A DNA stretch of 33,676 nt, from NCBI GenBank assembly GCA_017999835.1, contig JAGNLA010000017.1, positions 1-33,676 of the forward strand, in the 5' to 3' direction. Source of the stretch: Caldisericia bacterium (GTDB lineage Bacteria > Caldisericota > Caldisericia > JAAYUI01). The notes under the pieces were generated by a model. That model was not told the DNA's origin and did not search any database. It was given only the letters and a program-made list of their open reading frames with translations. The first letter of the stretch is position 1. Each line of letters opens with the position of its first letter. Positions 6,452 to 31,416 of this stretch are shown piece by piece. A program made the translations under genes and the position numbers.

Positions 6452-6473
6452 GGTAAAGGAAGGCTGGAGAAAG

Positions 6474-7859
6474 ATGCTGAAAGCAATACTGGCAATAATA
6501 ATGACTATAGCATTGAATGGGCAAGCAAAAAGTGATGCATATGTGACAATCTGGTCACAAAATACTGAAGACTATAATACGATACCCTTTCAAATGACAA
6601 TAGATGATAATAACATTTACAGTTACAAATTGAATTACGTTTTCTGCATTGATAAAAATACAGGTAGAATTCTATGGACAAATAAAACAAACAATACGTT
6701 CTATCAAAACACAACTCCTATTATTTACAATGATAAGGTCATATACAATGGAGAGAATATTATCTGTTTAAACAAGAATAACGGTAACTCGATTTGGACA
6801 GTAGACATGTCGGTGGTTTCTGAACCAATTCGGATATCTAACAAATATTATTTTCTGAACAACAGAAAAAAACTTGTGTTGCTTGATTTAGATAAAGTAG
6901 AAACAATCGAAGAGTGGTTATTGGATGAGCCAGTATTAAATATGCGCATTATTGATGATGACGTTATCTTCACAGATTTAAATAAAGGGCAATTATCGAG
7001 ATACAACTTGACAACTAAAAGATATCTTTGGAAGAAATATGTAGATAACAATCGCATCTCTTCACCGTTGGTACACGACAACAAAATGCTTATCGTACTT
7101 ATAGGCAATGCCAAATGTATTTCACTTGTCAACGGCGATTTGCTTTGGGAAACAAAATATCATGGCGGTTCCATGTACCCTATCTTATATAACGATAAAA
7201 TCTTTGTTGGGTCAACGTGCATAGATTTTCTAACAGGCAAAGTAATCTGGGATCATGGGTATTATGTGTGTAATTCTGTAATCTTAGATGAAAAATTATA
7301 TGTTTTTTCTCCATGGTGCCTAACAATTCACGACATCCATAATGGTGACAAGGTTTGGTCTGAAAATATTGCATCGCCACCAGGCGTAGGTATTAAATAC
7401 TATTCTAAACCTGTCGTTTCAGATAATAGAATTTATATCGCCTCGGTCGAGGGATACCTGGAGTGTTATGGTAAAATGTGCAATCGGATATCCTTCTCAC
7501 TCGGTGAAAATGAATACAGTTACGGCGATAATAAAGTTTACTTTAATGTTGCTCCTTTTGTTAGCAAAGACGATAATAAAATATACATAGATGCCATAAA
7601 TGTCCTCGGTGAGCTTGACATTAAAGTTTGGTATGCAAATGAAGATTATTATTACTGCACAAGAAAGAATGCTACAATTGCAACATTGATCGGTAAGGGG
7701 ATGAAAAAAGAACACGAATCATACGTTTCTGCATATATTACCAGAATTGACAATCGCATTATGATTTCCTTGGATGATTTGAGAAAAATTTCGAAATGCC
7801 GTATAGTATACGACAGCACGCAAAAGAAATATTTAATTGCTGCTGGAGACAATGTATAA
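6474..7859 (+). CDS. Exported PQQ-like beta-propeller protein A with stalk domain
   Basis: The 461-residue protein starts with a Sec signal peptide (about residues 1-22). It has at least six propeller blades marked by GxxxW motifs (GRILWTN, GNSIWTV, GDLLWET, GKVIWDH, GDKVWSE), typical of PQQ-like/quinoprotein beta-propellers. The last 110 or so residues resemble a copper-amine-oxidase N-terminal (stalk) domain, with a degenerate RIMISLDDLRKI...YD motif. The SD GGAG lies seven bases before the ATG. It follows the RHS tip 1 gene by 22 bases and is homologous in layout to propeller B at 13827-15245. Position directly downstream of the tip suggests an immunity or co-secreted partner; this is inference. 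No catalytic function is claimed. Confidence 0.75.
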   Translation: MLKAILAIIMTIALNGQAKSDAYVTIWSQNTEDYNTIPFQMTIDDNNIYSYKLNYVFCIDKNTGRILWTNKTNNTFYQNTTPIIYNDKVIYNGENIICLNKNNGNSIWTVDMSVVSEPIRISNKYYFLNNRKKLVLLDLDKVETIEEWLLDEPVLNMRIIDDDVIFTDLNKGQLSRYNLTTKRYLWKKYVDNNRISSPLVHDNKMLIVLIGNAKCISLVNGDLLWETKYHGGSMYPILYNDKIFVGSTCIDFLTGKVIWDHGYYVCNSVILDEKLYVFSPWCLTIHDIHNGDKVWSENIASPPGVGIKYYSKPVVSDNRIYIASVEGYLECYGKMCNRISFSLGENEYSYGDNKVYFNVAPFVSKDDNKIYIDAINVLGELDIKVWYANEDYYYCTRKNATIATLIGKGMKKEHESYVSAYITRIDNRIMISLDDLRKISKCRIVYDSTQKKYLIAAGDNV

Positions 7860-9438
7860 ATCATACTTTCTTGTTACAACCACCAAAGACGATGAAATGC
7901 GCATACACCTTGGTGCCAACTCACGTCCAATATCCTTTGAGTACTACACTGAGAACCAGAACACCCAGCAGACAACATCTGCCACCTACTACTACCACTA
8001 TGACCTTCATGGCAATGTCATTCGTGTCACAAACTCCTCAGGCACAACAGTCATCTCCTACACCTATGACCAGCTGGGTACTATTGTCTCTGAAACTAAT
8101 GCCAACTCCATCTACAACCCATTCACCTACATGGGTGAAGCACAAATAATCCATGATGATGAGTTTGACACCTCAGGCACCACACCAAAGACTGGCCTCT
8201 ACTCCTCAGGTTCAGGTTACTACAACCCTAAGACAGGGACATTCCTTGGTGGTTCAGGTGCACCAGCATCCTCAAACCCAACATCCACCTCTGCTGAAGA
8301 ACCGACAGCACAGAGCACAAAACCTGCCTCACAGCTTGGAGCACATGCAGGAATTGCTGCTGTTGCTGGTGGTGTACCCTCTACCAAGACTGTAGCTGCA
8401 TCCATTGATGTCGAACCTGAGCCAACCACAACAAATGCTCCGGTAGTGGAAGAAGCGATAGCACCGGTGCAATGCACGGCTTCTTTTGTTGATCTTAGTT
8501 GGGGTAATGAAGCTCGAAGGTTGAATGAATCAGATGAAGAATACGAAGAAAGATTGAAACGGTCTTGGGAAAACCGTACGAGATGGGCAGCCGCCATGAA
8601 GGAAGCTGAGGAGAAGAGAAGACAGAAAGAAGATGTAAGAGAGAATCCTGGAGGTGGTAGTGGCTCAGTTGAAAGAAAACTCCCTACGTTTGAGATTATC
8701 GATGAGGGATCCATTGATCCTGGCGTTAGAAAAATCAACGAAGACAGAGGCAAAGAGAATCTAATTCAACCGAGTCGTCAGCTATTGGCAGACGTTGCGC
8801 AAATGGCTCTTGAGTATCAGATAGCAAATGATAAGGACCCCTCAGATGATGCTTCACAATACACTTGGGTAATTCGTAATAGTCAAGGTGAAATAATTGC
8901 ATGCCAAACCAAAAGTAAATATGCTGGGGATCCACAACAAGTATTCTTGTTTGATGTAGACCCAACAACCGGTGAAAGATTAAGTAGTTCTCCTGTAAAC
9001 TGGTGGGATCAAAGTGCTAAAGTTGCTGCATGGAACAAGATATGCGATCTTGTTCAAAATGGTAAAATCAATAATATCTCATTTTATGATACTAAAGGAA
9101 ATAAAACTTGGGGTTGCATAGGTATGCAGATCGATGATGCAGGTGGTTGGAGAGGCATATTCACAGATAAATCTGGCAATATATCTGTTGGTGAAGGTAA
9201 CATTAATGATTTTGCTATGAAGGATATGCCAATTGATCGCAATGGCAATATGGCTCGAATGATAACATGGGTTCATGAAGGAACCGATGCATCTGATCCA
9301 TATGCCTTTGCAGTATATACTACTGGTGGTTCCTATAACGGTGCATTAAGATGTAATTTATATAGTTTTTCACCTTCACTTTGGGCTCATAATCGATATG
9401 TTATATCAGGCAATGGCGGTTTTTGGTTAGTACCCTAA
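7852..9438 (+). CDS. Orphan RHS core plus tip 2
   Basis: A displaced RHS 3' end without signal peptide, N-terminal domains or YD shell. The open frame begins at 7837; the ATG at 7852 overlaps the last codons of propeller A (stop 7857-7859), which would allow coupled translation, with only a weak GGAG nearby. The first 11 or so codons are unrelated to the core; the core match starts at about 7873 and runs to about 8365. A charged linker (EEYEERLKRSW, EAEEKRRQKED) leads to a new C-terminal domain. That domain contains WNKICDLVQNGK, SFYDTKGNK, GCIGMQIDD and WRGIFTDKSG, and a similar series occurs in tip 3. The tip family is not one I recognise. It may be a silent donor for tip switching or an independently made effector. 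The stalk A gene follows 22 bases later. Confidence 0.65.
   Translation: MYKSYFLVTTTKDDEMRIHLGANSRPISFEYYTENQNTQQTTSATYYYHYDLHGNVIRVTNSSGTTVISYTYDQLGTIVSETNANSIYNPFTYMGEAQIIHDDEFDTSGTTPKTGLYSSGSGYYNPKTGTFLGGSGAPASSNPTSTSAEEPTAQSTKPASQLGAHAGIAAVAGGVPSTKTVAASIDVEPEPTTTNAPVVEEAIAPVQCTASFVDLSWGNEARRLNESDEEYEERLKRSWENRTRWAAAMKEAEEKRRQKEDVRENPGGGSGSVERKLPTFEIIDEGSIDPGVRKINEDRGKENLIQPSRQLLADVAQMALEYQIANDKDPSDDASQYTWVIRNSQGEIIACQTKSKYAGDPQQVFLFDVDPTTGERLSSSPVNWWDQSAKVAAWNKICDLVQNGKINNISFYDTKGNKTWGCIGMQIDDAGGWRGIFTDKSGNISVGEGNINDFAMKDMPIDRNGNMARMITWVHEGTDASDPYAFAVYTTGGSYNGALRCNLYSFSPSLWAHNRYVISGNGGFWLVP
7873..8365 (+). repeat. RHS core repeat copy B
   Basis: This segment matches the main RHS gene from about 4840 to 5310, beginning at ACCACCAAAGACGATGA and ending near the SQLGAHA codons. 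Many differences from the main copy are synonymous, while the block 8102-8183 is identical. It starts 14 bases after the propeller A stop codon. Confidence 0.85.
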
Positions 9439-9460
9439 TAATAATCATGCGAGGTGGCAA

Positions 9461-10579
9461 ATGAAAAAAATAATCACAATCTTGATGATATGCATAATAA
9501 GTTGTTATTCGGGGTTTGCGACCCCGAAACAAATACAATCGGTTAGAACGAGCAATAACAACCTAATCCTTAGAATTATGACAGACTCTAATGTTATCAT
9601 TGACGGTAGCAAGATATCGTACATAAAACTTGAAAAACCTCTACCACTGCTTGAGTACCATAGCGATAATCGATTGATGATATATAAAACCGGGGTAATA
9701 GAAAATAAGAACAATAAACAAGTATTTGGCCTTATTATGGATGAATATGGAAACCCTGTACAAATCGATTACACTCTTGATGACTACCCAAAATGGCTAT
9801 CTAATATCATTGATAACAAACTCGAGTTGTACGTTGATGGTATGAATTTGGCTGCGATTTCATTTGTCGACTATTCAAAAAACAAAGCTGAGCAAGTGAT
9901 TACACGAACTTTCTTCAGTTTCCCTTCGACATACTTGATCACGCGACAAGAAAACATAACAAAACTAAATGATCGTACACTTGTAGTTTCAAAAATCAAT
10001 TTTGAGAATGACTATTTCAATGTTGACAAGGGGAATCTTAAACAATCTTCCTCGGAGCCTTTTAATCCTGATATTATGTCCAAGAATAACGATTATGTTG
10101 TTGGGATTAATGATATCCTAGCTCAGCATTGTTATCAGCATCTTGACACAAAATTGAAGGGATATCTTTGTCTCTTTGCAAACAAAAAGAAGGTTATTCT
10201 TCAGGGATATGAAACTGAATTCAATGAATCGTTGACAATTAAAAATTCCACTGCAATGGTATCGATGTATAATATATTTAAGTCAACGGACTGCGCTATT
10301 GTACATGACACAAAAGAGCGAATTTGGGATATATACTTGTATATCAACAAGAATTTATCTACACCTCTAGAGAGCATTCACATTCGAATACCCGATGGCA
10401 GCAACAAATACTATATTAATGAGAAAGAATTTACTTTCTCTGAAGCGCCCATCATTGATACAAGTTATGGCTGGAATTACACTTCAATGATACCATTGAA
10501 AGATGCGTTGGCAGCCATAAAGCTAAATTATTATTATCGAGCAAGCGATAAATCATTTTTGATTGAGAGGTTTAGATAG
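9461..10579 (+). CDS. Exported stalk-domain protein A, tip 2 partner
   Basis: The 372-residue protein starts with a Sec signal peptide (MKKIITILMICIISCYSGFA) and has an SD GAGGTGG before the ATG. The body is mostly beta-like with no motif I recognise. The C-terminal 60 or so residues (YYINEKEFTFSEAPII...MIPLKDALAAIKLNYYYRASDKSFLIERF) have the layout of a copper-amine-oxidase-type stalk domain. This end closely resembles the C-terminus of stalk B (11269-12414), which follows tip 3. Homologous partners sitting behind homologous tips argue for toxin-immunity or effector-partner pairs, here with an exported partner. Displaced RHS core begins four bases after its stop. Confidence 0.7.
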   Translation: MKKIITILMICIISCYSGFATPKQIQSVRTSNNNLILRIMTDSNVIIDGSKISYIKLEKPLPLLEYHSDNRLMIYKTGVIENKNNKQVFGLIMDEYGNPVQIDYTLDDYPKWLSNIIDNKLELYVDGMNLAAISFVDYSKNKAEQVITRTFFSFPSTYLITRQENITKLNDRTLVVSKINFENDYFNVDKGNLKQSSSEPFNPDIMSKNNDYVVGINDILAQHCYQHLDTKLKGYLCLFANKKKVILQGYETEFNESLTIKNSTAMVSMYNIFKSTDCAIVHDTKERIWDIYLYINKNLSTPLESIHIRIPDGSNKYYINEKEFTFSEAPIIDTSYGWNYTSMIPLKDALAAIKLNYYYRASDKSFLIERFR

Positions 10580-10582
10580 GTT

Positions 10583-10884
10583 CCCAGATAACAACCATTG
10601 AAATAGACCAGACACAGACAGTAGATGATGGTGAAGGAGACCCAGTAACTACCACCACCAAGGACGATGAGATGCGCATACACCTTGGTGCCAACTCCCG
10701 TCCAATATCCTTTGAGTACTACATTGAAGACCAGAACACCCAGCAGACAACATCTGCAACCTACTACTACCATTATGACCTGCATGGCAATGTGATAAGA
10801 GTCACAAACTCCTCAGGCACTACAGTAATCCAGTACACATATGACCAGCTGGGTTCCATTGTCTCTGAAACCAACCCTAACTCC
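10583..10884 (+). repeat. RHS core repeat copy C, truncated
   Basis: This segment matches the main RHS gene from about 4768 (CAGATAACAACCATTGAAAT) to 5072, then switches abruptly to cysM-like sequence at the codons for N-S-I-E. It has no tip of its own. The frame from 10672 remains open through the junction and gives a chimeric ORF ending at 10983. Confidence 0.85.
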
Positions 10885-10983
10885 ATTGAGTGTGGTTGTG
10901 TCGTGGCTATCTTCCCTAACAGAGGGAACAGATACCAGTCGACAAACCTGTTCAAGTCGTTCTGCTCAAAATGCCCACCATGA
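10672..10983 (+). pseudogene. Chimeric ORF: RHS core fused in frame to cysM tail
   Basis: The first 70 or so residues are RHS core (MRIHLGANSRPISFEYY and onward). From about 10885 the frame encodes ECGCVVAIFPNRGNRY and ends FKSFCSKCPP, a diverged copy of the cysM C-terminus found at 15383-15478 on the other strand. The copies differ at many synonymous and some replacement positions (DRGDRYL versus NRGNRYQ), so the duplication is not recent. There is no SD and no tip. I regard it as a recombination scar rather than a working gene. Confidence 0.6.
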
Positions 10984-11094
10984 GACATCTGACACAAGCC
11001 ATTTTCGAAGGTAATCACCAGACTATCATGATAAATGAACCGAGTTGTAAGGTGAACGCATAGTGGTCATAATGTTGGAGATTTCACGATGATT
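10885..11094 (+). repeat. Inverted copy of cysM tail, intergenic region and propeller gene start
   Basis: After the cysM-like stop (10981-10983), sequence similar to the cysM-propeller B gap continues in the same order. ACCAG...ATCAT, AAATGAACC, AACG(C/T)ATAGT, TTGGAG and finally ATGATT at 11089-11094 line up with the corresponding elements around 15240-15330 on the minus strand. A divergent stretch of about 45 bases follows the stop. The copy breaks off after two codons of the propeller gene and joins an inverted RHS fragment. It therefore forms an imperfect inverted repeat with 15240-15478. Confidence 0.65.
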
Positions 11095-11249
11095 GAATGT
11101 CTTCTCCACTCTTCTGCCTGCTGCGTCATACTCGAAGTCTATGTCATTGCAATTCAACATGGGTGAGGTTGTTGTCAGATGAGTAGGTAAGGCTTGTGGT
11201 CTCATCCGGATCCTGCATTGGCATGCATGGCTTTCTCCATCTCTCCTGT
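11095..11249 (-). repeat. RHS core repeat copy E, inverted and degenerate
   Basis: Read on the minus strand, this matches the main RHS gene from 4534 (ACAGGAGAGATGG) to 4696 (GAGAAGACATTC), covering the DPDETT and SSDNNLTHV codons. A small deletion after CACCCATGTTGA breaks the frame. It begins about 19 bases after the stop of stalk B, repeating the pattern of a core fragment directly behind each partner gene. The other 20 or so bases up to 11268 show nothing else. Confidence 0.8.
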
Positions 11250-11268
11250 AAAAAAGTATTGCTTCCTC

Positions 11269-12414
11269 TCAGTTTCGATAATTTTGGAATCTTTCGATTA
11301 AAAGTGATTTGTTTGTCGGTCTATAATGATGTTTCACATTGAAGAATCTTTCTATATCCACTAAAGCAATCATAACAGACTTTGAATCCTCATGTTCATA
11401 TGGAGGTGCCGACAACTCAACTTTCTCTCCATCCAAATGCGCAATGTTTGACTCAATTGAGAATTTCAACTCTTTAAGTTTTATGTTCTCTTCACTTTCG
11501 CGAATCAGCATCTTGAAAATATAATAATTCCCGTTTGCATGCACTTCTAGAGCACCGCCAAGCTGAAAAGCCACCAGATAAGCATCTACATATAATTTCT
11601 GATCAACCATTTCGGCACTTGGATATAAAGTACCACGCACCACACCATTTGATGTGATAATAGCTTCGGGGAAATTATCATTTAAGCACATTTCAAGAAA
11701 TCCAAGCCCTGCGTTTTCTGTAAAGAAATAACTCGAATCTGTGTTAGTGCAGAAGTTTCTCCAGCCTAGCAACTTCTTGTTCTTTATATCAGGAAAATTG
11801 TCTGGGTTTATGGGTTCACTCATTGTAGTTACATAACCGTTGATACAATATTTCTCAACCTGGTAATACAAATCTTCATCGATAATGAATATTGAGTTAC
11901 AGTTATCTTCTAAATAACTGTTATCGCAATCAATATCAATGAAATCATTTCTACCCTTTTTTATTGCACCATTGGAATCGCAAAAAACCCAATATATTTC
12001 CGAGCCAACAAGTTTCGAAATGATGTTTATCTGAAGCTTTTTATCGTAACCTGAGATTTTCATGTTTAATGAATTATTGAACAGGAAGCGTGCATAAAGA
12101 TTGACCTCTTTTTTATCATTGAGATTGACGAATTCAGGGTCTCCATTTGAATCCAAAACTGGCATGTTGTAATTTCTACCATCGTTGTCTTTGACAACCT
12201 TAATTTTCGTCATTTGGACAGAGTTATCATCAATTTTTAGAATTTGAATTGGTTTTTCAAATTCTATCACTTTATCATCGTTAGCACCTGAAACAGTCGT
12301 GGAGTAGGCGTTTATCGTGAACTTTATCAGTCTCTCTGTTTTAGTGTTGACTGCTCGAAAAGATACTAAAAAGAAAACCAGCGACAGTATTAGAGCAATT
12401 TTTGTATACTTCAT
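11269..12414 (-). CDS. Exported stalk-domain protein B, tip 3 partner
   Basis: The 381-residue protein has a Sec signal peptide (about residues 1-22, MKYTKIALILSLVFFLVSF) and an SD AGGGGG shortly before the ATG at 12414. It starts 18 bases after the stop of the tip 3 gene. Its C-terminus (AHLDGEKVELSAPPY...MIALVDIERFFNVKHHYRPTNKSLLIERF) is clearly related to the end of stalk A and fits a copper-amine-oxidase-type stalk domain. The N-terminal 250 residues have no recognised motif. Its role as an immunity or companion protein for tip 3 is inferred from position and from the matching stalk A/tip 2 pair. Confidence 0.7.
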   Translation of the reverse strand: MKYTKIALILSLVFFLVSFRAVNTKTERLIKFTINAYSTTVSGANDDKVIEFEKPIQILKIDDNSVQMTKIKVVKDNDGRNYNMPVLDSNGDPEFVNLNDKKEVNLYARFLFNNSLNMKISGYDKKLQINIISKLVGSEIYWVFCDSNGAIKKGRNDFIDIDCDNSYLEDNCNSIFIIDEDLYYQVEKYCINGYVTTMSEPINPDNFPDIKNKKLLGWRNFCTNTDSSYFFTENAGLGFLEMCLNDNFPEAIITSNGVVRGTLYPSAEMVDQKLYVDAYLVAFQLGGALEVHANGNYYIFKMLIRESEENIKLKELKFSIESNIAHLDGEKVELSAPPYEHEDSKSVMIALVDIERFFNVKHHYRPTNKSLLIERFQNYRN

Positions 12415-12432
12415 ATTCCCCCTGTTCCCAAG

Positions 12433-13830
12433 TTATTTTATCTTCTTTAACCTACCATTATTTAAATCGTAGTAAAAAACACCATTTGCAGATTTCTTTA
12501 ACAAAGGATTGGTATAATAATTCTTTGATCGATCAAAACTTTGTGCTCTACCTGTAGAATCACGTATAGTTGTGTCCGTTACCCCAACAGCTTTATGAAA
12601 AGAACCATTGATGTATCTTCCAGCAGACGCTACAGTATTGCCATTACTTTCACGTCTAGTAGTAATAAAATCACCAGCAGAAAAATCTCCCTCCTCTAAA
12701 GGTTTTTCTTCCCCTACTTTACTGGGATCTGCATCTTGTTCATCATACATAAAATCATGTATTTCGCTTGTTCCTCCAGGATAATCATTTGTTTCTCCAT
12801 ATGTAGTTTTATTTTTTAATCCAAAATCTGCTGCACTCCCATTTGTCCTTACGCTTGTTGTAAACTGTTTACTTTTATCTTTTATTTCTGAATTATATGC
12901 AACAAAAATACCGGTCCAGGTTCCATCGCTCATCTTCATTCCTATCGATCCACTGCAGGGTTTACCATCGGAATCAAAAAACCTAGCTTTGCCTTTGCCC
13001 TTGTCAACATTTTTGCATATCTCATTCCATCTGTCTTGCTTCTTTTTCTTATCTGTTATTTCTTTACCGGCTTTATCATAAATATGTAATTCGCCATTTT
13101 TATCAACTCGAGCGACAACTTTCCCTTTTTCGTCAGTAATTACAGTTGTATCGCCTTCTTGACCGCCCATACTTTCTGGACCATCTTTCTTTTTATCATC
13201 ACTTTTTGAATCAGAAATAGCAACTGTAGTAGAGCTATCCCCAGAAACTTTATAGGTTATCGGCGGCAACATCTGTGGAGGCGCATCGGTATCGTCGGTA
13301 AATGAAGGGCCACAGTTATCATCCGAGTTATTTTCCTCTTCTGGCATCTGCGATTCTAAATTTGTATTCAGTTTGTTCTTAGAAGAAACATCTATGATCG
13401 GTGTCACAGTGGATTCTTGGGCTTCTTGCGCCATTTCTGCAGCCTGCATCAAAGGTCGAGATACTCTTGCCATAAAGGCCTCAGGAGAATTTGACACAGG
13501 ATTCATATCTGTTGGTGCACCTGAACCACCAAGGAATGTCCCTGTGTGGGGGTTGTAGTAGCCTGAGCCTGAGGAGTAGAGGCCGGTCTTGGGAGTGGTG
13601 CCTGAGGTGTCAAACTCATCATCATGGATTATTTGTGCTTCACCCATGTAGGTGAATGGGTTGTAGATGGAGTTGGCGTTGGTTTCAGCAACAATTGTGC
13701 CCAGCTGGTCATAGGTGTACTGGATTACTGTTGTGCCTGAGGAGTTTGTGACTCTAATCACATTGCCATGAAGGTCATAGTGGTAGTAGTATGTGGTGAC
13801 TGTTGTGGTGGTTGTGGTGTTAGCTTTCAT
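12433..13830 (-). CDS. Orphan RHS core plus tip 3
   Basis: A displaced RHS end on the minus strand. The frame is open from 13866, but the better start is the ATG at 13828-13830, which overlaps the propeller B stop as ATGA, so translation could be coupled. The core match (TTTTTVTTYYYHYDLHGNV to FLGGSGAP) lacks an internal segment present in the main copy. The tip diverges at about 13505. A Gln/Glu/Asp-rich linker precedes a C-terminal domain with RWNEICKNVDKGK, RFFDSDGKPC, GSIGMKMSDG and WTGIF. That series parallels tip 2 (WNKIC, SFYDTKGNK, GCIGMQIDD, WRGIF), so the two tips share a domain. I know no family for it. Stalk B follows 18 bases later. Confidence 0.65.
   Translation of the reverse strand: MKANTTTTTTVTTYYYHYDLHGNVIRVTNSSGTTVIQYTYDQLGTIVAETNANSIYNPFTYMGEAQIIHDDEFDTSGTTPKTGLYSSGSGYYNPHTGTFLGGSGAPTDMNPVSNSPEAFMARVSRPLMQAAEMAQEAQESTVTPIIDVSSKNKLNTNLESQMPEEENNSDDNCGPSFTDDTDAPPQMLPPITYKVSGDSSTTVAISDSKSDDKKKDGPESMGGQEGDTTVITDEKGKVVARVDKNGELHIYDKAGKEITDKKKKQDRWNEICKNVDKGKGKARFFDSDGKPCSGSIGMKMSDGTWTGIFVAYNSEIKDKSKQFTTSVRTNGSAADFGLKNKTTYGETNDYPGGTSEIHDFMYDEQDADPSKVGEEKPLEEGDFSAGDFITTRRESNGNTVASAGRYINGSFHKAVGVTDTTIRDSTGRAQSFDRSKNYYTNPLLKKSANGVFYYDLNNGRLKKIK
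13505..13827 (-). repeat. RHS core repeat copy D, inverted
   Basis: Read on the minus strand, this begins two bases before the end of the propeller B gene (CACCACAACCACCACAACAGTCACC matches main positions near 4716-4742). It jumps over about 200 bases of core and resumes at TACTACCACTATGACC through GGTTCAGGTGCACCA. The block 13595-13676 is identical to 5061-5142. Confidence 0.85.
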
Positions 13831-15245
13831 TTTGTAATAGTAGCTGTCTTGGTTTTTGTATCCCATTTCAGTTTTAGGTTGAATGCATCAGTGAGTTTGC
13901 GCAGAGGGACAAAGATTGTATTGTTGACCTCGATACAACCGTCAATTACATTGTTGTCTTTTGAATCTGATTTTGTTTTTAGCAGCCTCACCACTTTGTC
14001 ATTATATATGCAGTTTTTGTATTGTTTCGTGCTGAACCCACCAACTCTTCCACCTAAAGGCTCAATGATTGTAACTGGATTAATGTATAAAGCACCGTTT
14101 TTTACAAACGGCTTATCGTCAATGAACACTTTTTGCTTGCCAACTAAAGAATAATTACTGCCAACGGTGACTGAGACAGTGCTGACGTTTGCACCGAACT
14201 TGTAAATGGCAGAACCAGTTGTCATATAGATGTTGCCTTTGTGATATATGGGAAACGACGAAATGCTTCTGTCATCGCCCAACTCTTCTAGTCTGGTGTC
14301 TTTGCAGGTTATTTCACCAGTATCGAGCTTGAATATGACATAGTCACCATTATCGAGAAATGCAGTTATGCGATCGTCACACAGGCAGTTTACAGAAGAA
14401 AAGTCAATCTGGTCATTCTTCCAAAGGATTTTGCCGTTGTTTTTGTCCAAACAAACCTTGCCTGCCACAAGTTTGTTGCCAGAAATGAGCATGTTTGACT
14501 GGAAATCGATGTTTTGTGACCAGACGATTGTGCGTTTAACAAGGTCGTAGCAATTGACCATTACCTGTTTATCTTTTCTGGAATAGTAGTAGAGCATGTT
14601 GCCATCAAAGAGAGGGACGGGTTTAAAATGGCATGGTTCAGGCAATAGTTCTGACAAGAAAATATCATTGTTTACCAGATCTAAAATAACTATGTGAGTG
14701 TAATTGACAAATACAGCAAAGTTTTTATTTCTGAATACTATCCTGTCTTGGCCTACGCTATCTTTCAATGGGATTGTTCTGATAAATGTGCCTTTTTCTA
14801 GATCGATGAGGCAAATCTTATCGAAAAAATTGATGATTGAAATGTTATTCACCGGATTTGAAAGATCGGATTTCGGTTTACAACTAACAAACCATTTCTG
14901 CTTTCCTGTTGCTTTGTCGTAACCATAGATGCCCATTGTGGTAATAAATGAAATAGTTGTTTTTGTAAGCTTCGGGTTGTTGTCAACATTCCTAAAAACA
15001 GCATTATACGGTTCGAACTCTGTCTTTATACACCACTTTGTTTCTCCTGTTTCTATGTTAATGCAGAAAAGACCGTTGTAGTCTGATGTGTACAAATATC
15101 CGTTGTCAATTACCAAACCAAAATGATGATCCCCCGCTGTTTTTGACCAAACAACACCAAAATAGTCATAATCCACTGCGTGTACAGAGGAAATTAACGT
15201 CAGAAACAACCCAAAAACTACGAAAGGCAAAAATCGTTTGATCAT
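13827..15245 (-). CDS. Exported PQQ-like beta-propeller protein B with stalk domain
   Basis: The 472-residue protein has a Sec signal peptide ending VHA (about residue 23) and an SD GGAGG (15253-15257) eight bases before the ATG. Propeller blades carry GETKW, GKQKWFV, TIVWSQN and GKILWKN motifs. The last 100 residues form a clear copper-amine-oxidase-type stalk domain (KVFIDDKPFVKNG..., then NNTIFVPLRKLTDAFNLKLKWD). It is the counterpart of propeller A and precedes an orphan core-tip, as propeller A does. In the array logic it would be the partner of a tip that has been lost between it and cysM. Its stop overlaps the start of tip 3. A conserved TATAGT box lies upstream. Confidence 0.75.
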   Translation of the reverse strand: MIKRFLPFVVFGLFLTLISSVHAVDYDYFGVVWSKTAGDHHFGLVIDNGYLYTSDYNGLFCINIETGETKWCIKTEFEPYNAVFRNVDNNPKLTKTTISFITTMGIYGYDKATGKQKWFVSCKPKSDLSNPVNNISIINFFDKICLIDLEKGTFIRTIPLKDSVGQDRIVFRNKNFAVFVNYTHIVILDLVNNDIFLSELLPEPCHFKPVPLFDGNMLYYYSRKDKQVMVNCYDLVKRTIVWSQNIDFQSNMLISGNKLVAGKVCLDKNNGKILWKNDQIDFSSVNCLCDDRITAFLDNGDYVIFKLDTGEITCKDTRLEELGDDRSISSFPIYHKGNIYMTTGSAIYKFGANVSTVSVTVGSNYSLVGKQKVFIDDKPFVKNGALYINPVTIIEPLGGRVGGFSTKQYKNCIYNDKVVRLLKTKSDSKDNNVIDGCIEVNNTIFVPLRKLTDAFNLKLKWDTKTKTATITK

Positions 15246-25120: not shown

Positions 25121-25354
25121 ATGTTAGAAGTAAGAATATATGAAAATGACAAAATGATTTGGTCACGTAATGAAAATGGAAAAGTCTGTGCGTGTTTAAA
25201 TGTTTATAGGGATAGCACTTTTGAAAAATTTAAGCCAATTCTTCAGAACACAATATGTCATGTAGAACGTGAACTAATTCAGCATTATGTATTGGAATTA
25301 ATTCAGGGTTATGTAACTGATAGAGTGATTAATAGCGCCTCCATCACTATATAA
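25121..25354 (+). CDS. Small hypothetical protein, 77 aa
   Basis: The ORF begins with a good SD, AAAGGAG, six bases before the ATG. The product (MLEVRIYENDKMIWSRNENG onward) starts with a beta-strand-like segment and ends with a helical region (HVERELIQHYVLELIQGYV). It has no signal peptide or membrane segment. I do not recognise it. It converges on the DUF1883-like gene, with a 57-base overlap at their 3' ends, so its last residues may be an extension of an older frame. A GCTC-TATAAA-GAGC hairpin lies just upstream of the SD. Confidence 0.45.
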   Translation: MLEVRIYENDKMIWSRNENGKVCACLNVYRDSTFEKFKPILQNTICHVERELIQHYVLELIQGYVTDRVINSASITI

Positions 25355-25573
25355 ATCGATAACAGTGTTCCAGTTGGCATCTGTATCTACCGTAACGACT
25401 ACCGACAATAATTTGTTGTTTTGTATTAGGTTATAAAAAGGTGATCCTTCTTTATAACGTAAGAAGTTATAATCGTCCATAACCATAATACGACATGGAC
25501 AATCTACGGTAATTTTAATAGAATCTCCTGCTTTGAGAAATTTCTGTTCGTGTACACAATAAATATCTTCCAT
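25298..25573 (-). CDS. Small DUF1883-like protein, 91 aa
   Basis: The sequence (FLKAGDSIKITVDCPCRIMV, MDDYNFLRYKEGSPF, VTVDTDANWNTVIDLYSDGG) resembles the DUF1883 domain. That domain typically has a conserved LMDxxNFxxYKxG segment followed by a G/N-W-x-V-x-D strand. Such domains occur alone or joined to TIR domains; no TIR domain is present here. No clear SD is visible before the ATG at 25573. It overlaps the convergent small gene at 25121-25354. The assignment is from motif memory and should be treated as moderate. The location beside a transposase remnant suggests accessory DNA. Confidence 0.45.
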   Translation of the reverse strand: MEDIYCVHEQKFLKAGDSIKITVDCPCRIMVMDDYNFLRYKEGSPFYNLIQNNKLLSVVVTVDTDANWNTVIDLYSDGGAINHSISYITLN

Positions 25574-25592
25574 GCGACATAATGTAATACAA

Positions 25593-26470
25593 CTAGGTTG
25601 TTTGTCAATAAGTTTCTAACCAATCTATTTATCAAGATTAACCAACCAGCATCGAATATTGAACTCTCTTGCCAACTATTCCTTTCAATGCCTGATTAAA
25701 TCTTTCACCATCTGAATCTTTCCTTGTATTCCATCTATAACAGAACTCATCACAGTACAAACCTAGATATTTGACTGAGACGTGATGGAAAACTCCACCA
25801 ATGCCCTTTTTCAGTAATGACCAGAAAGATTCAATCCAGTTTGTTGAAATATCACCACGAACATACTCACCACTCCTGTGATTAACCACGTCATGACCGA
25901 AGTCAAAGTACTTTCCAATTCCGTTGTAAGCTGGCCATTCATCGGTGAGGATTTTTGAAAAAGTATCTACGTTGTTAACTATAAACTCTTGAAGTGTTTT
26001 AGAGTCTACATGCTTGACTGGCTTGACCTTTGCCTTGCCGTTACGTTGTACAAGTCCAATAACCGGAGTCTTTGTTTGTGAACCACGACCACGCTTGCCC
26101 TTACCCTTACCACCAACATAGGTTTCATCGGCTTCAACATAACCAAACAGTTTGCAAAAGTCAGGGGATTCTTTCATAGCTTTACGGATTTTGTGTTTAA
26201 TGACCATGCAGTGCGATATGAACCAATTCCTAGTTGTCTTTGGAGTTGAAGGGCTGAAATTCCCTTCTTTGATGAACAAACGAGGTAGACATACTTTGAT
26301 TGGAAGGCGTGAGTCTGTAATGATTGTATTTACGGTTACAGTGAACTGCTTATGACAATCTGAACATTTATGAAGGCCTGAGCGGAAAACCGTGGAAAGC
26401 CAGGCAATCATCGCGCTCTCCCCGCTACACCTCAAGGTGGGACGAGTTACTCATAGTCAAAACAACTTAG
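25593..26470 (-). mobile_element. Candidate IS1595-type insertion sequence remnant
   Basis: The transposase remnant is bracketed by imperfect inverted ends. CTAGGTTGTTTGTCAATAAG at 25593-25612 resembles the reverse complement of 26450-26470, CTAAGTTGTTTTGACTATGA. The first 11 bases match at ten positions. I could not identify a target-site duplication, and the ends are a suggestion only. Confidence 0.35.
25638..26435 (-). pseudogene. IS1595/ISXO2-type transposase, frameshifted
   Basis: The C-terminal two thirds is a recognisable ISXO2-like DDE-type domain: GYVEADETYVGGKGKGKRGRG, then ILTDEWPAYNGIG, and VNHRSGEYVRGDISTNWIES. The N-terminal half keeps part of the zinc ribbon (GLHKCSDCHKQFTVTVNTII). 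Between about 26205 and 26275 the reading frame carries nonsense (GNFSPSTPKTTRNW), whereas the neighbouring frame encodes KKGISALQLQRQLGIGSYRT, the normal family sequence. Two compensating frameshifts therefore remove an essential stretch. The start is also degraded. It is probably inactive unless these are sequence errors. Confidence 0.75.
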
Positions 26471-26529: not shown

Positions 26530-26709
26530 TCAATCCCCGTCATGATTACAACCTGGTGGATAATCATTATTTTCACAAACACAATCACAATCGTAACAAT
26601 GACAACAAATGCTAGAACCTTGGTGGTTCTGATGGGTAGCATAATCATCTTTTTTTACATATCTCTCTTTATTTTTTGTATTATAGTAGAGATTAATAAT
26701 TCCTTTCAT
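26530..26709 (-). CDS. Cysteine-rich RiPP precursor peptide candidate, 59 aa
   Basis: This short gene overlaps the 3' end of the radical SAM gene by 17 bases and has an ideal SD (GGAGG, six bases before the ATG at 26709). The product has a polar leader-like part (MKGIINLYYNTKNKERYVKK, then DDYATHQNHQGSS) and a Cys-dense end, ICCHCYDCDCVCENND, followed by YPPGCNHDGD. Six Cys fall within 11 residues and a seventh follows. Size, leader-core layout and tight coupling to an rSAM-SPASM protein with a recognition domain fit a ribosomally made, modified peptide. It is not the SCIFF pattern. The modification (thioether or other) cannot be told from sequence. A metal-binding peptide is an alternative. 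Confidence 0.75.
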   Translation of the reverse strand: MKGIINLYYNTKNKERYVKKDDYATHQNHQGSSICCHCYDCDCVCENNDYPPGCNHDGD

Positions 26710-28003
26710 ACGTAGCCTCCTTTACATCAAAAATAAATCTTCTATCTTTCAATATTCCTAGCAATCTATCTGCTTCTATATAAGTAGTGCCGAGTTTGTT
26801 TTTTATTGAACCGATATCGATTTTCGTACTGGTTATTAGGAGTTCATAAAGTGAATTCTCAATAGGTAGCCATGCAGAATTTTGTAGATAAGCAATATAA
26901 CCAAATTTCTCTTTTCTATACCTTATAAACTTACTTATTAAAAACTCATTTGATCCATTTGATTCGAATAGCTTCTTAACCATATTTGTTGATATTATTT
27001 TTGTGCACATCGGGTCTTCAGAATCAGCAGATCCACAAACATTTTTACTATTTGCTCTGCAGCCGCCATGGCAAGCATACGGAAAAGCTTGGCATTTTTT
27101 CTTACAGTAATAGGGGATAAGACTATCATCCCTGTATTTTTTCATTTTGTCCCAAGCTTTTTTGAGACCATCGAAAATTGAACCGAATGATTCTTCACTT
27201 TGTGGACAAGGCCTAATATCACCATTTGAACCAATAATAATTGAAGATTTTCCTGAACCACATCCTCTATTTCCAAAGTACTCCCTTTGTTTATCAGTCT
27301 TAAAACCACAAGTTGGGCAAGGGACGAGAGTATCTATTCTCAAACCAAATTTTTCGTGAGCCAGTATTGCTTTATCAAACATTTCCAATATTTCTTCATG
27401 AGATAATGAATATTTTGTAAAGTCTTTTTGCCATAATGGCCAGGATGGCCTTGTAACACAGAACGATTTTGCACCTAATTTACATGACAATTCTGCTGTC
27501 TCTAAAACTGTCTCTTTGTTAAGTTTCGAACCGACCATACTTATTGAGATACCTAGACCATTTTCTTTTGCAAAACTTATCCCATTTATTACTCTTTCAA
27601 ACGAACCATCTATTCCAGTAATTTTATCGTGAACAAATCTATCGGACGACACAAGTGAGATGAGGAGGCCATTTATACCTAAATCTTTCAAAATTCTAAT
27701 ATGATCGCTATTGAGCATTGATGCATTTGTGTTTAAACCAAGAGAGACCCCTGAATTCACAAGAATCATTAACGAATCGTAATAATATTCCAAGACAACA
27801 AGTGGCTCTCCACCAGTTAAACAAACATCAAAAATTTTGTTTTGCAATATTTCTCTAACAACAACTTTTTGTTGCTCTTTGTCAAGGTAATTAATTGTTA
27901 TGTCTTTATCGCGCCAGTAATTATAACAATGCATACACTTTTGATTGCACCAAGATGTTAACTCCCATTGGATACTCACAGGTGCAGATAGTTTTTTATA
28001 CAT
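26693..28003 (-). CDS. Radical SAM/SPASM peptide maturase with C-terminal RRE
   Basis: The 436-residue protein has the radical SAM cluster motif CNQKCMHC (C19, C23, C26), GGEP at 64-67, and a Cys-rich SPASM region at about 229-333 (C229, C232, C248, C266, C300, C304, C311, C315, C323, C333). SPASM regions usually bind auxiliary iron-sulfur clusters. Residues of about 358-426 (RYRKEKFGYIAYLQNSAWLP through LLGILKDRRFIF) look like a PqqD-type RiPP recognition element. Such enzymes modify ribosomal peptides; the Cys-rich peptide gene overlapping its end is the obvious substrate. Base composition is clearly more AT-rich than the flanking genes, suggesting transfer. No strong SD is visible at the ATG at 28003. 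Confidence 0.85.
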   Translation of the reverse strand: MYKKLSAPVSIQWELTSWCNQKCMHCYNYWRDKDITINYLDKEQQKVVVREILQNKIFDVCLTGGEPLVVLEYYYDSLMILVNSGVSLGLNTNASMLNSDHIRILKDLGINGLLISLVSSDRFVHDKITGIDGSFERVINGISFAKENGLGISISMVGSKLNKETVLETAELSCKLGAKSFCVTRPSWPLWQKDFTKYSLSHEEILEMFDKAILAHEKFGLRIDTLVPCPTCGFKTDKQREYFGNRGCGSGKSSIIIGSNGDIRPCPQSEESFGSIFDGLKKAWDKMKKYRDDSLIPYYCKKKCQAFPYACHGGCRANSKNVCGSADSEDPMCTKIISTNMVKKLFESNGSNEFLISKFIRYRKEKFGYIAYLQNSAWLPIENSLYELLITSTKIDIGSIKNKLGTTYIEADRLLGILKDRRFIFDVKEATYERNY

Positions 28004-28046: not shown

Positions 28047-28718
28047 TTATATTTTAATTGTCAGCAACGGCTTTGCAAACAAATCTTTCTTGGTCATCCC
28101 TCTTCGTTTTGCAGCTTTATTCCAGCCTGAGTTGCCCATCATGCAATAAAGCCAGGCAGGCAGAGGCTGTGCTACCGTTTCAAGATATTCTGAGCAGGTA
28201 ATTCCATTTGCCAGAATGTTTGCAAACAAGTCTAGAGTCTTTTGGAGTCTTGAAACCATGCTGCCATGCTCCTCAAGCTTCATCGGTTTTCTGGAAGTTA
28301 GAGCAGCTCCACAACCGACCGAGACACCACCAACCCAGACCAAACCAGATTGTCTTGCAAAATTTTTCAAAATCTCCAAAGCCGAGTTGTTGTGAAGCGG
28401 CTCCGGAAAACCCGAATTGCTTATGGCGGCAACTTTCTTGCCTGAACCTGGAAAGGATTTCGACAAAATCTCGCAAGCTTTGGTCAAGCACGCTGGCAAC
28501 GAGTCAACATAGAGCGGAAATGTGAGAAACAGCAAATCCGCGTTTTTTGCGCTATCTATTAATGTTTTTGTTCCACTATCAGTCATCAGCGCCAACGCTG
28601 CGTTGACTTTGGATATCGAATGACCTTTGGCTATGAGTTTGTCGCAAACATGATTGCCAATTTTTTCCGATGTGCTGTGGTTTTGCTTTGGGCTGCCTAT
28701 AATCATGAGAACTTTCAT
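28047..28718 (-). CDS. Flavodoxin-fold NAD(P)H oxidoreductase-like protein
   Basis: The 223-residue protein opens with MKVLMIIGSPKQNHSTSEKI, the FMN-phosphate loop of the NADPH-dependent FMN reductase/flavodoxin-like family. It also has the FLTFPLYVDSLPACLTKACE segment that usually follows the second strand of the fold. The last 60 residues (EYLETVAQPLPAWLYCMMGN and onward) form a helical extension of unknown role. The ATG shares one base with the stop of the Fe-S flavoprotein gene (TGATG), so the two are translationally coupled. The partners and substrate are unknown; supplying electrons to the downstream radical SAM enzyme is possible but unproven. Confidence 0.7.
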   Translation of the reverse strand: MKVLMIIGSPKQNHSTSEKIGNHVCDKLIAKGHSISKVNAALALMTDSGTKTLIDSAKNADLLFLTFPLYVDSLPACLTKACEILSKSFPGSGKKVAAISNSGFPEPLHNNSALEILKNFARQSGLVWVGGVSVGCGAALTSRKPMKLEEHGSMVSRLQKTLDLFANILANGITCSEYLETVAQPLPAWLYCMMGNSGWNKAAKRRGMTKKDLFAKPLLTIKI

Positions 28719-29269
28719 CAGAGCACCTCTTTCAAGGATTTTTCGAGTGCTGACGCAACCTTTGCTTGACCGTCAATAACAACAGATGACCACTTGGGGG
28801 GTTGCATGTTCAGGACATTTCTTCGGGTCAGATTCAGAAAACACTCGGCTGACAGGGGATCGGGTGTTTCCTGATAGCCTATCATTAAATTTGCCGGCAC
28901 GTTTTCGTATCGCTGGAAGTGGTGAATTTCGCCTTTTATCCTTTTGAAGTATGGCAGAAGAATTGGGATCGACCTGTCGAGCATTTTTTTTAGCTCTGAC
29001 GAGTATCCGCCAAACGTCACAGGCGACAGATCCACAACGAGGTTGCAGTTGACCATTTTTCTGGTTATGTCTGTTGCATCATCACTTATTACGCAAATAC
29101 CAGGCGTTTTCACCCAGCAACCGAAACAACCGATGCATGGCTTGATGTGTTTTTCGGACAAGCAAATCCAATCGAGGCTGTGTTCCTTGAGCTTTGCCCT
29201 CAGTTCCGATTCTATCAACGCTGAAAGCTCGGTTTTCTCAATCTTCCCATCAAGCACGACTATATCCAT
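28718..29269 (-). CDS. Iron-sulfur flavoprotein-like NAD(P)H reductase
   Basis: The frame is open from 29344, but the ATG at 29269 with GAGGTG a few bases upstream is the better start, giving 183 residues. HIKPCIGCFGCWVKTPGIC (C45, C48, C51, C59) is the compact cysteine motif seen in iron-sulfur flavoproteins of the flavodoxin-reductase family. DLSPVTFGGYSSELKKMLDR matches the usual PVYFGxxSxxLKxxxDR segment. The canonical N-terminal GSPR phosphate loop is absent, so FMN binding may differ or the N-terminus may be shortened. It forms a coupled pair with the next gene. Confidence 0.7.
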   Translation of the reverse strand: MDIVVLDGKIEKTELSALIESELRAKLKEHSLDWICLSEKHIKPCIGCFGCWVKTPGICVISDDATDITRKMVNCNLVVDLSPVTFGGYSSELKKMLDRSIPILLPYFKRIKGEIHHFQRYENVPANLMIGYQETPDPLSAECFLNLTRRNVLNMQPPKWSSVVIDGQAKVASALEKSLKEVL

Positions 29270-29322
29270 TTTCACCTCAGATGAATGCTTTGACACAAAT
29301 AATTGTATTTTGTTTTTCAATG

Positions 29323-29350
29323 AAAAACCGGATGCAACGCGCATCCGGTT
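29323..29350 (-). terminator. Terminator after the ABC transporter operon
   Basis: On the minus strand AACCGGATGC pairs with GCATCCGGTT (29341-29350 with 29326-29335) around a 5-base loop and runs into a T-rich stretch. It closes the abrB-like/ABC unit and separates it from the flavoprotein genes. Confidence 0.75.
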
Positions 29351-29368: not shown

Positions 29369-30592
29369 TTATCTGGTGATAATTTTTTTGAAAAGCGGTA
29401 CAGCAATTATCAGCGTCACAGCTCCAAAAAGCACGAGAATCACAAGCTCTTTTGCCACATCACCGATGCCGGCGCCTAAAATCATGACTTTTCTTAAAGC
29501 GTCAACGGCATAAGTCAACGGCACACATTTTGAAATCACCTGCATGAAAGCAGGCATTTGCTGAATTGGAAAGAACACACCGGACAGAAACAGCATCGGA
29601 AACTGAACCATTGACAGAACCTGCATGGCTGATTCCTGCTGAGCAGCCGAGGCTGAAACGAGAATACCGAGTCCGACAAACGAGAAAATGCCAAGTATGA
29701 GGATGAACGTGACTAAAAAAAGGCTACCATTGATGTGGACTCCAAACAAAACCATCGCCAACAACAATACCAGCGCTCCCTGAATCAGGCCTCTTACTGA
29801 TTGAGAAAGGGCTTTGCCCATGATGATTGACAGTCTGCTGATTGGTGCAATAAGAATTCCATCAAGAGTGCCGTGTTCCCTTTCCACCGAAACGGAAGCA
29901 GCAAGTCCAGTCAGGACGGCTGTCAAAACAATCATTGCAATGATGCCTGGGGCGACAAAATCGAAATAGTTGGTTTCGCCTTCAATCAAACCCTTGACTT
30001 CAACACTTATCGGCGTGATGTAGGACGATGCATCGGACTGACCGGATGTCGGCATCTGTTGAATGGAGGTGTCAGGTTTTCCGGATTGTGAATTTCTTGA
30101 AAGCAGCGTTTCAACTTTTTGACTGCCAATTTTTTGTCCAAACATCTCCACAACTTTAGACAATACGGATGTTGTTGTCTTTGAAATCTGCGGGCTGGAC
30201 TGGTCTTCGATGATGGTGATCTTTGCCTGTTTTGAAGAGGTGATAACATTCGAGAAATCCTCAGGAATGATAAGAGCTCCATTTACATCCTGTTTTTTAA
30301 TCGCTTCTTTCACCTGGTCAACGGTTTTGTATTCTTTGACGATGAAAGCCTTGTTTCCTTTTGTCATTTCAATGTTTGACAGGGCTTCCTTTAGTTGATT
30401 GCCAACTTTCGGATCACTGTTGACGATGCCAATTGGGATGTCCTTTATGCTTGACTGGTTTGGGAAAATGAATCCTGTCAATATCATCATGAATATCGGC
30501 ATGATCAAAAACACGACCAGCCTCATCTTGTCTCTTGGGAACTCTGTCAAATCTTTTTTGCAAATCTGCCATATATCGCTTAAAGTTCTCAT
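29369..30592 (-). CDS. ABC-2 type transporter permease
   Basis: The 407-residue membrane protein has one N-terminal transmembrane segment (LVVFLIMPIFMMILTGFIFP), a large extracytoplasmic region of about 190 residues, and five further hydrophobic segments toward the C-terminus. The ABC-2 hallmark region ASVSVEREHGTLDGILIAPI follows the second membrane segment. This matches the YhgE/DrrB-like ABC2_membrane_3 family that exports drugs, lipids or peptides. It starts five bases after the ATPase stop, and the two would form the transporter. Substrate unknown; the nearby peptide locus makes it a possible exporter, but a terminator lies between them. Confidence 0.85.
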   Translation of the reverse strand: MRTLSDIWQICKKDLTEFPRDKMRLVVFLIMPIFMMILTGFIFPNQSSIKDIPIGIVNSDPKVGNQLKEALSNIEMTKGNKAFIVKEYKTVDQVKEAIKKQDVNGALIIPEDFSNVITSSKQAKITIIEDQSSPQISKTTTSVLSKVVEMFGQKIGSQKVETLLSRNSQSGKPDTSIQQMPTSGQSDASSYITPISVEVKGLIEGETNYFDFVAPGIIAMIVLTAVLTGLAASVSVEREHGTLDGILIAPISRLSIIMGKALSQSVRGLIQGALVLLLAMVLFGVHINGSLFLVTFILILGIFSFVGLGILVSASAAQQESAMQVLSMVQFPMLFLSGVFFPIQQMPAFMQVISKCVPLTYAVDALRKVMILGAGIGDVAKELVILVLFGAVTLIIAVPLFKKIITR

Positions 30593-30597
30593 TTGCT

Positions 30598-31416
30598 CTA
30601 CCTCACTCTGCTCACAGGCCTGCTGCCTGGAGGGCCATGCCTGACGTTAGAAACTGCTTTACCAAGTGCATCTCTTATTTCTTTGCCTGTGACATTAAGG
30701 AACACATCGCCAAGTGTCGGCTTTTCCACGTCTTTAACCAGTTTCTTAAGCTCATCGACAGTGTCCATGGCCACGACCTTGCCATGGTCTATAATGGCAA
30801 CACGGGAGCTGAGAGCCTCAGCCTCAACCATGTCATGAGTGGTCAGAATAATTGTTGTTCCCTTTGCATTCAGCTCCTGAATGAATGTCCTGATCATGTA
30901 GGTTGTCTGTGGATCAAGTCCCAACGTTGGTTCATCCAGAAACATTATCTCCGGTTCAGTCAGCAGAGCCCTTGCAATGTTTATTCGCTGTTTCATGCCG
31001 GTTGAAAATGTTGAAACCTGCGCGTTTCTCCACTCTTCCATCCCGAGACGTTCAAGCCATCTGTTGGCTCTTTCGACAATCAGACTTGTCGGCATGTGGT
31101 TGAGTCTGCCGAAAAATAGCAGGTTTTCCATGGCTGTCAAGTAATCGTAAAGAATGATTTTTTCTGCAACAAGACCTATCTTTGCCCTGACTTTGTCCTG
31201 TTGGGTCTTTATGTCGAAACCTGCAACTGTTGCTGTTCCGGACGTTGGTGTCAGGAGAGTTGTCAGCATCCTTATGGTCGTGGATTTGCCAGCGCCATTC
31301 GGGCCAAGGAATCCAAAAATCTCGCCTTTTTTGACATCCAGTGATATGGCATCAACAGCGGTAAATCTCCGAAACATTTTTGTCAGTTTGTCCGTTTTGA
31401 TTATGCTTTCACTCAT
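30598..31416 (-). CDS. ABC transporter ATP-binding protein, DrrA-like
   Basis: The 272-residue ATPase has Walker A GPNGAGKST (38-46), signature FSTGMKQR (137-144), Walker B IMFLDEPT (157-164) and switch His194 (LTTHDMVEAE). The GMKQR form of the signature is common in DrrA/CcmA-type exporters. Its ATG overlaps the stop of the AbrB-like gene as ATGA, and the permease follows five bases after its stop, so the three form one operon. The C-terminal 40 residues are typical of the family's regulatory tail. Confidence 0.92.
   Translation of the reverse strand: MSESIIKTDKLTKMFRRFTAVDAISLDVKKGEIFGFLGPNGAGKSTTIRMLTTLLTPTSGTATVAGFDIKTQQDKVRAKIGLVAEKIILYDYLTAMENLLFFGRLNHMPTSLIVERANRWLERLGMEEWRNAQVSTFSTGMKQRINIARALLTEPEIMFLDEPTLGLDPQTTYMIRTFIQELNAKGTTIILTTHDMVEAEALSSRVAIIDHGKVVAMDTVDELKKLVKDVEKPTLGDVFLNVTGKEIRDALGKAVSNVRHGPPGSRPVSRVR

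Follow-up and report, generated by a model that had tools for sequence, protein, structure and literature searches.

A candidate radical SAM/SPASM maturase with an overlapping cysteine-rich peptide gene in a low-GC patch of a Caldisericia genome

Introduction

Does a radical SAM (rSAM)/SPASM enzyme encoded on a Caldisericia contig modify the short cysteine-rich peptide whose gene overlaps the end of its own? The two genes occupy positions 26,530 to 28,003 of a 33,676-nucleotide stretch of contig JAGNLA010000017.1 (assembly GCA_017999835.1), which we call the window and to which all coordinates refer. A sequence-only reading had described them as a candidate RiPP system, i.e., a maturase carrying a PqqD-like C-terminal domain together with a Cys-rich precursor unlike SCIFF or other known patterns. 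Here we ask whether the peptide gene is real, what the enzyme resembles, whether its last domain could be an RRE, where the pair may have come from and which explanation fits its anatomy best.

Results

A short gene with a dense cysteine cluster

The putative precursor gene lies at 26530..26709 on the minus strand and encodes 59 amino acids (MKGIINLYYNTKNKERYVKKDDYATHQNHQGSSICCHCYDCDCVCENNDYPPGCNHDGD). Its arrangement is as the sequence-only reading had described it: both open reading frames are present, the peptide gene and the 3′ end of the rSAM gene share 17 nt, with the peptide start falling inside the last rSAM codons, and a strong Shine-Dalgarno sequence (AAAGGAGG, 26716-26723, minus strand) sits within the rSAM 3′ end, 6 nt before the peptide ATG. 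The Cys-rich end of the product was likewise borne out, as all seven Cys (positions 35, 36, 38, 41, 43, 45, and 54) fall within the last 25 residues. The peptide may accordingly be divided into a putative charged leader (residues ~1-33) and a putative Cys-rich core (residues ~34-59, ICCHCYDCDCVCENNDYPPGCNHDGD), and a small terminator-like hairpin (AGAACC-ACCAA-GGTTCT, 26614..26630, minus strand) is found inside the gene at the presumed boundary between the two. Searches of NCBIfam (to E = 1) and of Pfam (to E = 10) gave the peptide no match to a precursor model, SCIFF included, in agreement with the earlier claim that its Cys spacing differs from known patterns; rSAM/SPASM RiPP pairs are a known kind of system, into which this peptide would enter as a precursor that, judged by its sequence, none of these models describes.

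Several lines of evidence bear on the reality of so short a gene. AGGAGG placed 4-9 nt ahead of ATG, GTG, or TTG occurs only seven times on both strands of the 33.7-kb window. Chance occurrence was evaluated by simulating 1,500 islands of 3.5 kb that kept the dinucleotide make-up, searched on one strand: four of them contained an ORF of 50 or more codons with AGGAGG and nine an ORF of 50-80 codons bearing seven or more Cys, while the two features never came together (0/1,500). GC contents at codon positions 1, 2, and 3 are 0.42, 0.33, and 0.20 in the peptide gene and 0.39, 0.36, and 0.27 in the rSAM gene, and the antisense frame of the peptide gene, which is also free of stops, shows the reverse order. 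Synonymous codons of the peptide gene tend toward those of the rSAM gene, weakly, as 6% of composition-only simulations match this tendency. Because the Shine-Dalgarno sequence and Cys cluster together were unreached in the simulations and codon-position GC resembles that of the rSAM gene, we take the 59-codon gene as real.

An unnamed SPASM-type enzyme

The overlapping gene (26693..28003, minus strand) encodes a 436-aa radical SAM/SPASM protein, recognized by the Pfam models Radical_SAM (2.6e-24) and SPASM (7e-4), the latter with a score of 20.2 bits, slightly below the cut-off of 21.5. The rSAM domain begins at about residue 8 and contains the CX3CX2C motif (C19, C23, C26) and GGEP at residues 64-67. 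A SPASM-like series of Cys follows as C248-X12-G-X4-C266, C300-X3-C304-X6-C311-X3-C315, and C333. Compared with the published seven-Cys SPASM motif, CX9-15GX4C-gap-CX2CX5CX3C-gap-C (PMC5715301, PMC6231123), the C248-C266 part fits, whereas the middle part reads CX3CX6CX3C, with one additional residue in two of its gaps, and C333 supplies the last Cys. The rSAM gene start has no clear Shine-Dalgarno sequence, which we count against the RiPP-pair reading.

Against NCBIfam, the best match over the whole rSAM-SPASM part is GeoRSP (TIGR04303; 110.8 bits, cut-off 400), followed by the heme b synthase AhbD (105 bits) and NirJ2 (91 bits), and the PapB ranthipeptide maturase model NF047865 scores 60.1 bits with a cut-off of 340. 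Because none of the models reaches its cut-off, the protein is, as far as its sequence tells, an unnamed SPASM-type enzyme, and the named families leave its substrate undecided. Viperin-like proteins were considered and rejected, as the PADLOC matches of 56 bits reflect the common rSAM core and the enzyme has a SPASM-like part and an adjoining peptide. The best sequence matches in the PDB are SkfB, PqqE, and 5wgg (CteB). An AlphaFold model of the full-length enzyme, built with 15 distant sequences, reached a pLDDT of 71.5; Foldseek with the predicted core returned SkfB, SuiB, and PqqE as top matches, and VIA-align 2 gave Z scores of 22.8-25.9 for the predicted core against SuiB, CteB, anSME, SkfB, and PqqE, with about 3.1-3.7 Å over 277-315 residues for SuiB, CteB, anSME, and SkfB. 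Likeness of a predicted fold shows no function by itself, and the set matched by the model is rich in peptide-modifying enzymes.

The C-terminal extension

Residues 342-436 (26696..26980, minus strand) form a C-terminal extension with helices in the model, possibly an RRE-like winged helix. Read by eye, residues ~357-422 could comprise a beta hairpin and then three helices. The full-length AlphaFold model contains three consecutive helices at residues 379-418, of low-to-moderate confidence and without a confident beta sheet, and a model of the domain alone (pLDDT 53) was too poor for a structure search. The domain matched nothing in Pfam or NCBIfam, neither hmmsearch nor hhalign recognized it with a profile built from 30 PqqD domains, taken from 30 loci, and as a query against 386 genomes it yielded only short unrelated matches. 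The anatomy continues to be read best as a RiPP maturase with a Cys-rich precursor, but the PqqD-like or RRE character that had been given to the last ~95 residues is unconfirmed by Pfam, NCBIfam, the PqqD profile, and AlphaFold.

Because RREs are known to evade PF05402 (PMC7470986), the missing PqqD match is inconclusive and does not disprove an RRE. One review places the RRE of rSAM maturases generally at the N-terminus and notes a C-terminal one in proteusin epimerases, which have the radical SAM cluster only (PMC8326336). A C-terminal RRE on an rSAM protein is not impossible in this class, since an rSAM protein encoded by another genome of the class (L067/L021) has a weak PqqD match at that end (22.5 bits, cut-off 23.4). 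The gene at that locus (L067, 155-1680 of G019:C1) has a 34-codon, Cys-containing ORF (MMYKPVITKTSEEVGLMTAVGGGILCICSRAVEM) with a strong Shine-Dalgarno sequence at its start and is followed by an ORF for an MFS-like transporter, and we note the locus as a candidate RiPP cluster in its own right.

Genomic setting and composition

Both genes belong to a low-GC patch at 24.5-28.0 kb, mostly of 30-37% GC and 44% over part of an insertion sequence, flanked by housekeeping genes of ~46-51% GC in a chromosome of ~47%. GC3 is 0.27 in the rSAM gene and 0.20 in the peptide gene, compared with 0.53-0.57 in host genes; by computed GC, the composition of both genes is foreign relative to the host, and the rSAM gene was probably acquired from elsewhere. 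Downstream of the peptide gene, at a distance of 95 nt, lies the remnant of an IS1595-family transposase gene (25638..26435, minus strand; NCBIfam 5e-49) with an atypical, possibly frame-damaged N-terminus. The genome contains no second copy of this ORF, and no clear terminal inverted repeats were found around it. The patch also holds a DUF1883 gene on the minus strand and a 77-aa ORF on the plus strand (25121-25573), whose 3′ ends overlap by 57 nt; the 77-aa ORF has a good Shine-Dalgarno sequence (AAAAGGAG).

Upstream, a gene for an FMN_red/flavodoxin-fold protein (28047..28718, minus strand; Pfam FMN_red 7e-7) stops 43 nt ahead of the start of the rSAM gene. It is the second of two such genes and is absent from 50 relatives. 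The other (28718..29344, minus strand; Pfam FMN_red 1.8e-9) has host-like GC and a CxGCxGCW motif, and its product is a possible reductant. Further upstream on the same strand are genes for an ABC-2 type permease, a possible exporter (29369..30592, minus strand; Pfam ABC2_membrane_3 5e-57), an ABC transporter ATPase (30598..31416, minus strand; recognized by eye in its sequence), and an AbrB-like protein. All five upstream genes are near the host in composition, and the FMN_red proteins and ABC transporter could provide electron supply or export for the pair. No dedicated leader peptidase was recognized in the window, which we again count against the RiPP-pair reading.

Elsewhere in the window (270-15245), YD-repeat (Rhs-like) genes are interleaved with low-GC orphan genes. 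Two further, shorter ORFs there (7837-9438 and 12433-13866) start with the same repeat sequence and have different tails, an arrangement that resembles an array of displaced Rhs tips.

Searches for relatives

Genome samples searched with the enzyme comprised 61 and then 386 genomes from across the bacteria, 49 from the same class, and 245 and 395 from two further phyla, about 1,020 distinct genomes in total. No ortholog was found in them; no match exceeded ~102 bits, no alignment reached the C-terminal domain, and an empty search over a genome sample does not prove absence from nature. A scan for sequence patterns in 84,980 species, which sees close relatives only, returned one unrelated rSAM protein (L004). 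Viral contigs gave nothing, whether searched by protein or by motif, and plasmids gave generic matches such as PqqE only. Searches with the peptide covered 60 relatives as well as viral contigs, plasmids, phages, and PDB sequences, and yielded nothing credible. As neither gene had an ortholog in these searches, the pairing is supported by its anatomy and not by co-occurrence.

A second Cys-rich rSAM system, unrelated to the pair described here, exists in the same genome (L066, 2-2316 of G000:C21). There, an rSAM gene with an N-terminal PqqD-like match adjoins a long ORF with a weak match to TIGR04222 (2e-4), whose C-terminal tail consists of CHSA repeats and ends in CVSGF. Similar CHSA tails beside rSAM genes occur in two relatives (L017 and L018, of the same family as L066).

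Discussion

The explanation that we favor, at a probability of roughly 58%, is that the locus encodes an orphan rSAM RiPP pair in which the enzyme modifies the overlapping Cys-rich peptide, most likely by forming Cys thioether links; the 59-aa peptide would thus probably be the enzyme's substrate. The N-terminal ~33 residues would serve as a leader, perhaps bound by the C-terminal domain of the enzyme. The radical SAM cluster would generate a 5′-deoxyadenosyl radical that abstracts hydrogen from one residue of the core; a Cys of the core, held by an auxiliary SPASM cluster, could then attack the radical site, forming one or more thioether links with a loss of 2 Da each. Because Asp sits at Cys+4 in three CX3D spacings (C36-D40, C38-D42, C45-D49), Cys-Asp chemistry like that of freyrasin/PapA is the possibility to consider first, with the proviso that a count of three CX3[D/E] is not significant given the composition of the peptide (P = 0.10). 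PapB, an enzyme that forms Cys-Asp thioethers, uses CX3D as its link motif (PMC9413430). Sequence does not separate a sactipeptide from a ranthipeptide or a metal-binding peptide.

Known systems resemble the proposed pair in part. PapA-PapB (freyrasin) and the ranthipeptides, as well as CteA-CteB (SCIFF), likewise combine an rSAM/SPASM maturase with a short neighboring peptide whose many Cys lie near the C-terminus, and the three Cys-X3-Asp spacings recall PapA in particular. Unlike these systems, however, the peptide here matches no precursor model and the enzyme has no N-terminal RRE. GeoRSP (TIGR04303) is the best NCBIfam match of the enzyme but far below cut-off, and neither the separate PqqD-like protein nor the separate SPASM-like protein of a GeoRSP-like locus (L035) accompanies the rSAM gene here. 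The predicted fold of residues 1-335 is like that of SkfB, SuiB, and PqqE; in SkfB and SuiB an RRE is fused to the enzyme, at the N-terminus in the case of SkfB, and PqqE works with a separate PqqD (PMC8326336), whereas any RRE of the present enzyme would be C-terminal. That position, if an RRE is present, would be shared with the radical SAM proteusin epimerases, from which the enzyme differs by its SPASM-like motif.

The same Cys cluster would also suit a metal-binding or redox peptide, co-transcribed with the rSAM gene and left unmodified by an enzyme that acts on another protein or a small molecule. The dense CCxCxxCxCxC arrangement, with its Asp and His, recalls a metallothionein, SPASM enzymes mature enzymes and hemes too (anSME, AhbD, NirJ), and the AhbD and NirJ2 scores lie near that of GeoRSP (111 bits). 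However, the overlapping frames and rSAM-like composition suit an enzyme and its substrate at least equally well, and the low-GC patch offers no other candidate substrate except the DUF1883 protein and the 77-aa ORF, so that we consider an unmodified peptide unlikely.

Because the pair adjoins an IS remnant, decay is also possible: the ORF would be real, but enzyme or peptide would have become non-functional, or partner genes would have been lost, after IS activity. The atypical N-terminus of the nearby transposase, a low-GC patch severed from any partner genes, and the failure to find relatives speak for such a history, yet the rSAM ORF is full-length with intact catalytic motifs and the peptide gene retains its start, Shine-Dalgarno sequence, and stop, leaving decay with a small chance. 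Least probable is a spurious peptide ORF beside an enzyme whose substrate is encoded at a distance. The absence of a peptide homolog from the searches, the partly simple, TGT-rich sequence of the gene, and its weak synonymous codon signal speak for such an ORF; the Shine-Dalgarno sequence and Cys density that 1,500 simulations failed to reach, and the GC at codon positions shared with the rSAM gene, make it very improbable.

Returning to the orphan RiPP pair, a bolder version of it, which we consider less likely than not, holds that the locus represents a new RiPP family: a SPASM-type maturase with a C-terminal leader-binding domain would install several nested links in the CCxCxxCxCxC core, and the compact product, a thioether or metal-binding peptide, would differ from SCIFF and PapA. 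Proof of a C-terminal RRE and of nested links would set the locus apart as a new variant among rSAM/SPASM RiPP pairs. As a single instance without relatives it carries limited weight for now; it illustrates how orphan pairs on small low-GC patches escape family models. Should enzyme and peptide act together as suggested, they would add to the known precursors one outside the NCBIfam and Pfam models, with an unusually dense Cys core and interleaved Asp, and the peptide would be a useful substrate for learning what guides SPASM enzymes in selecting donor and acceptor residues.
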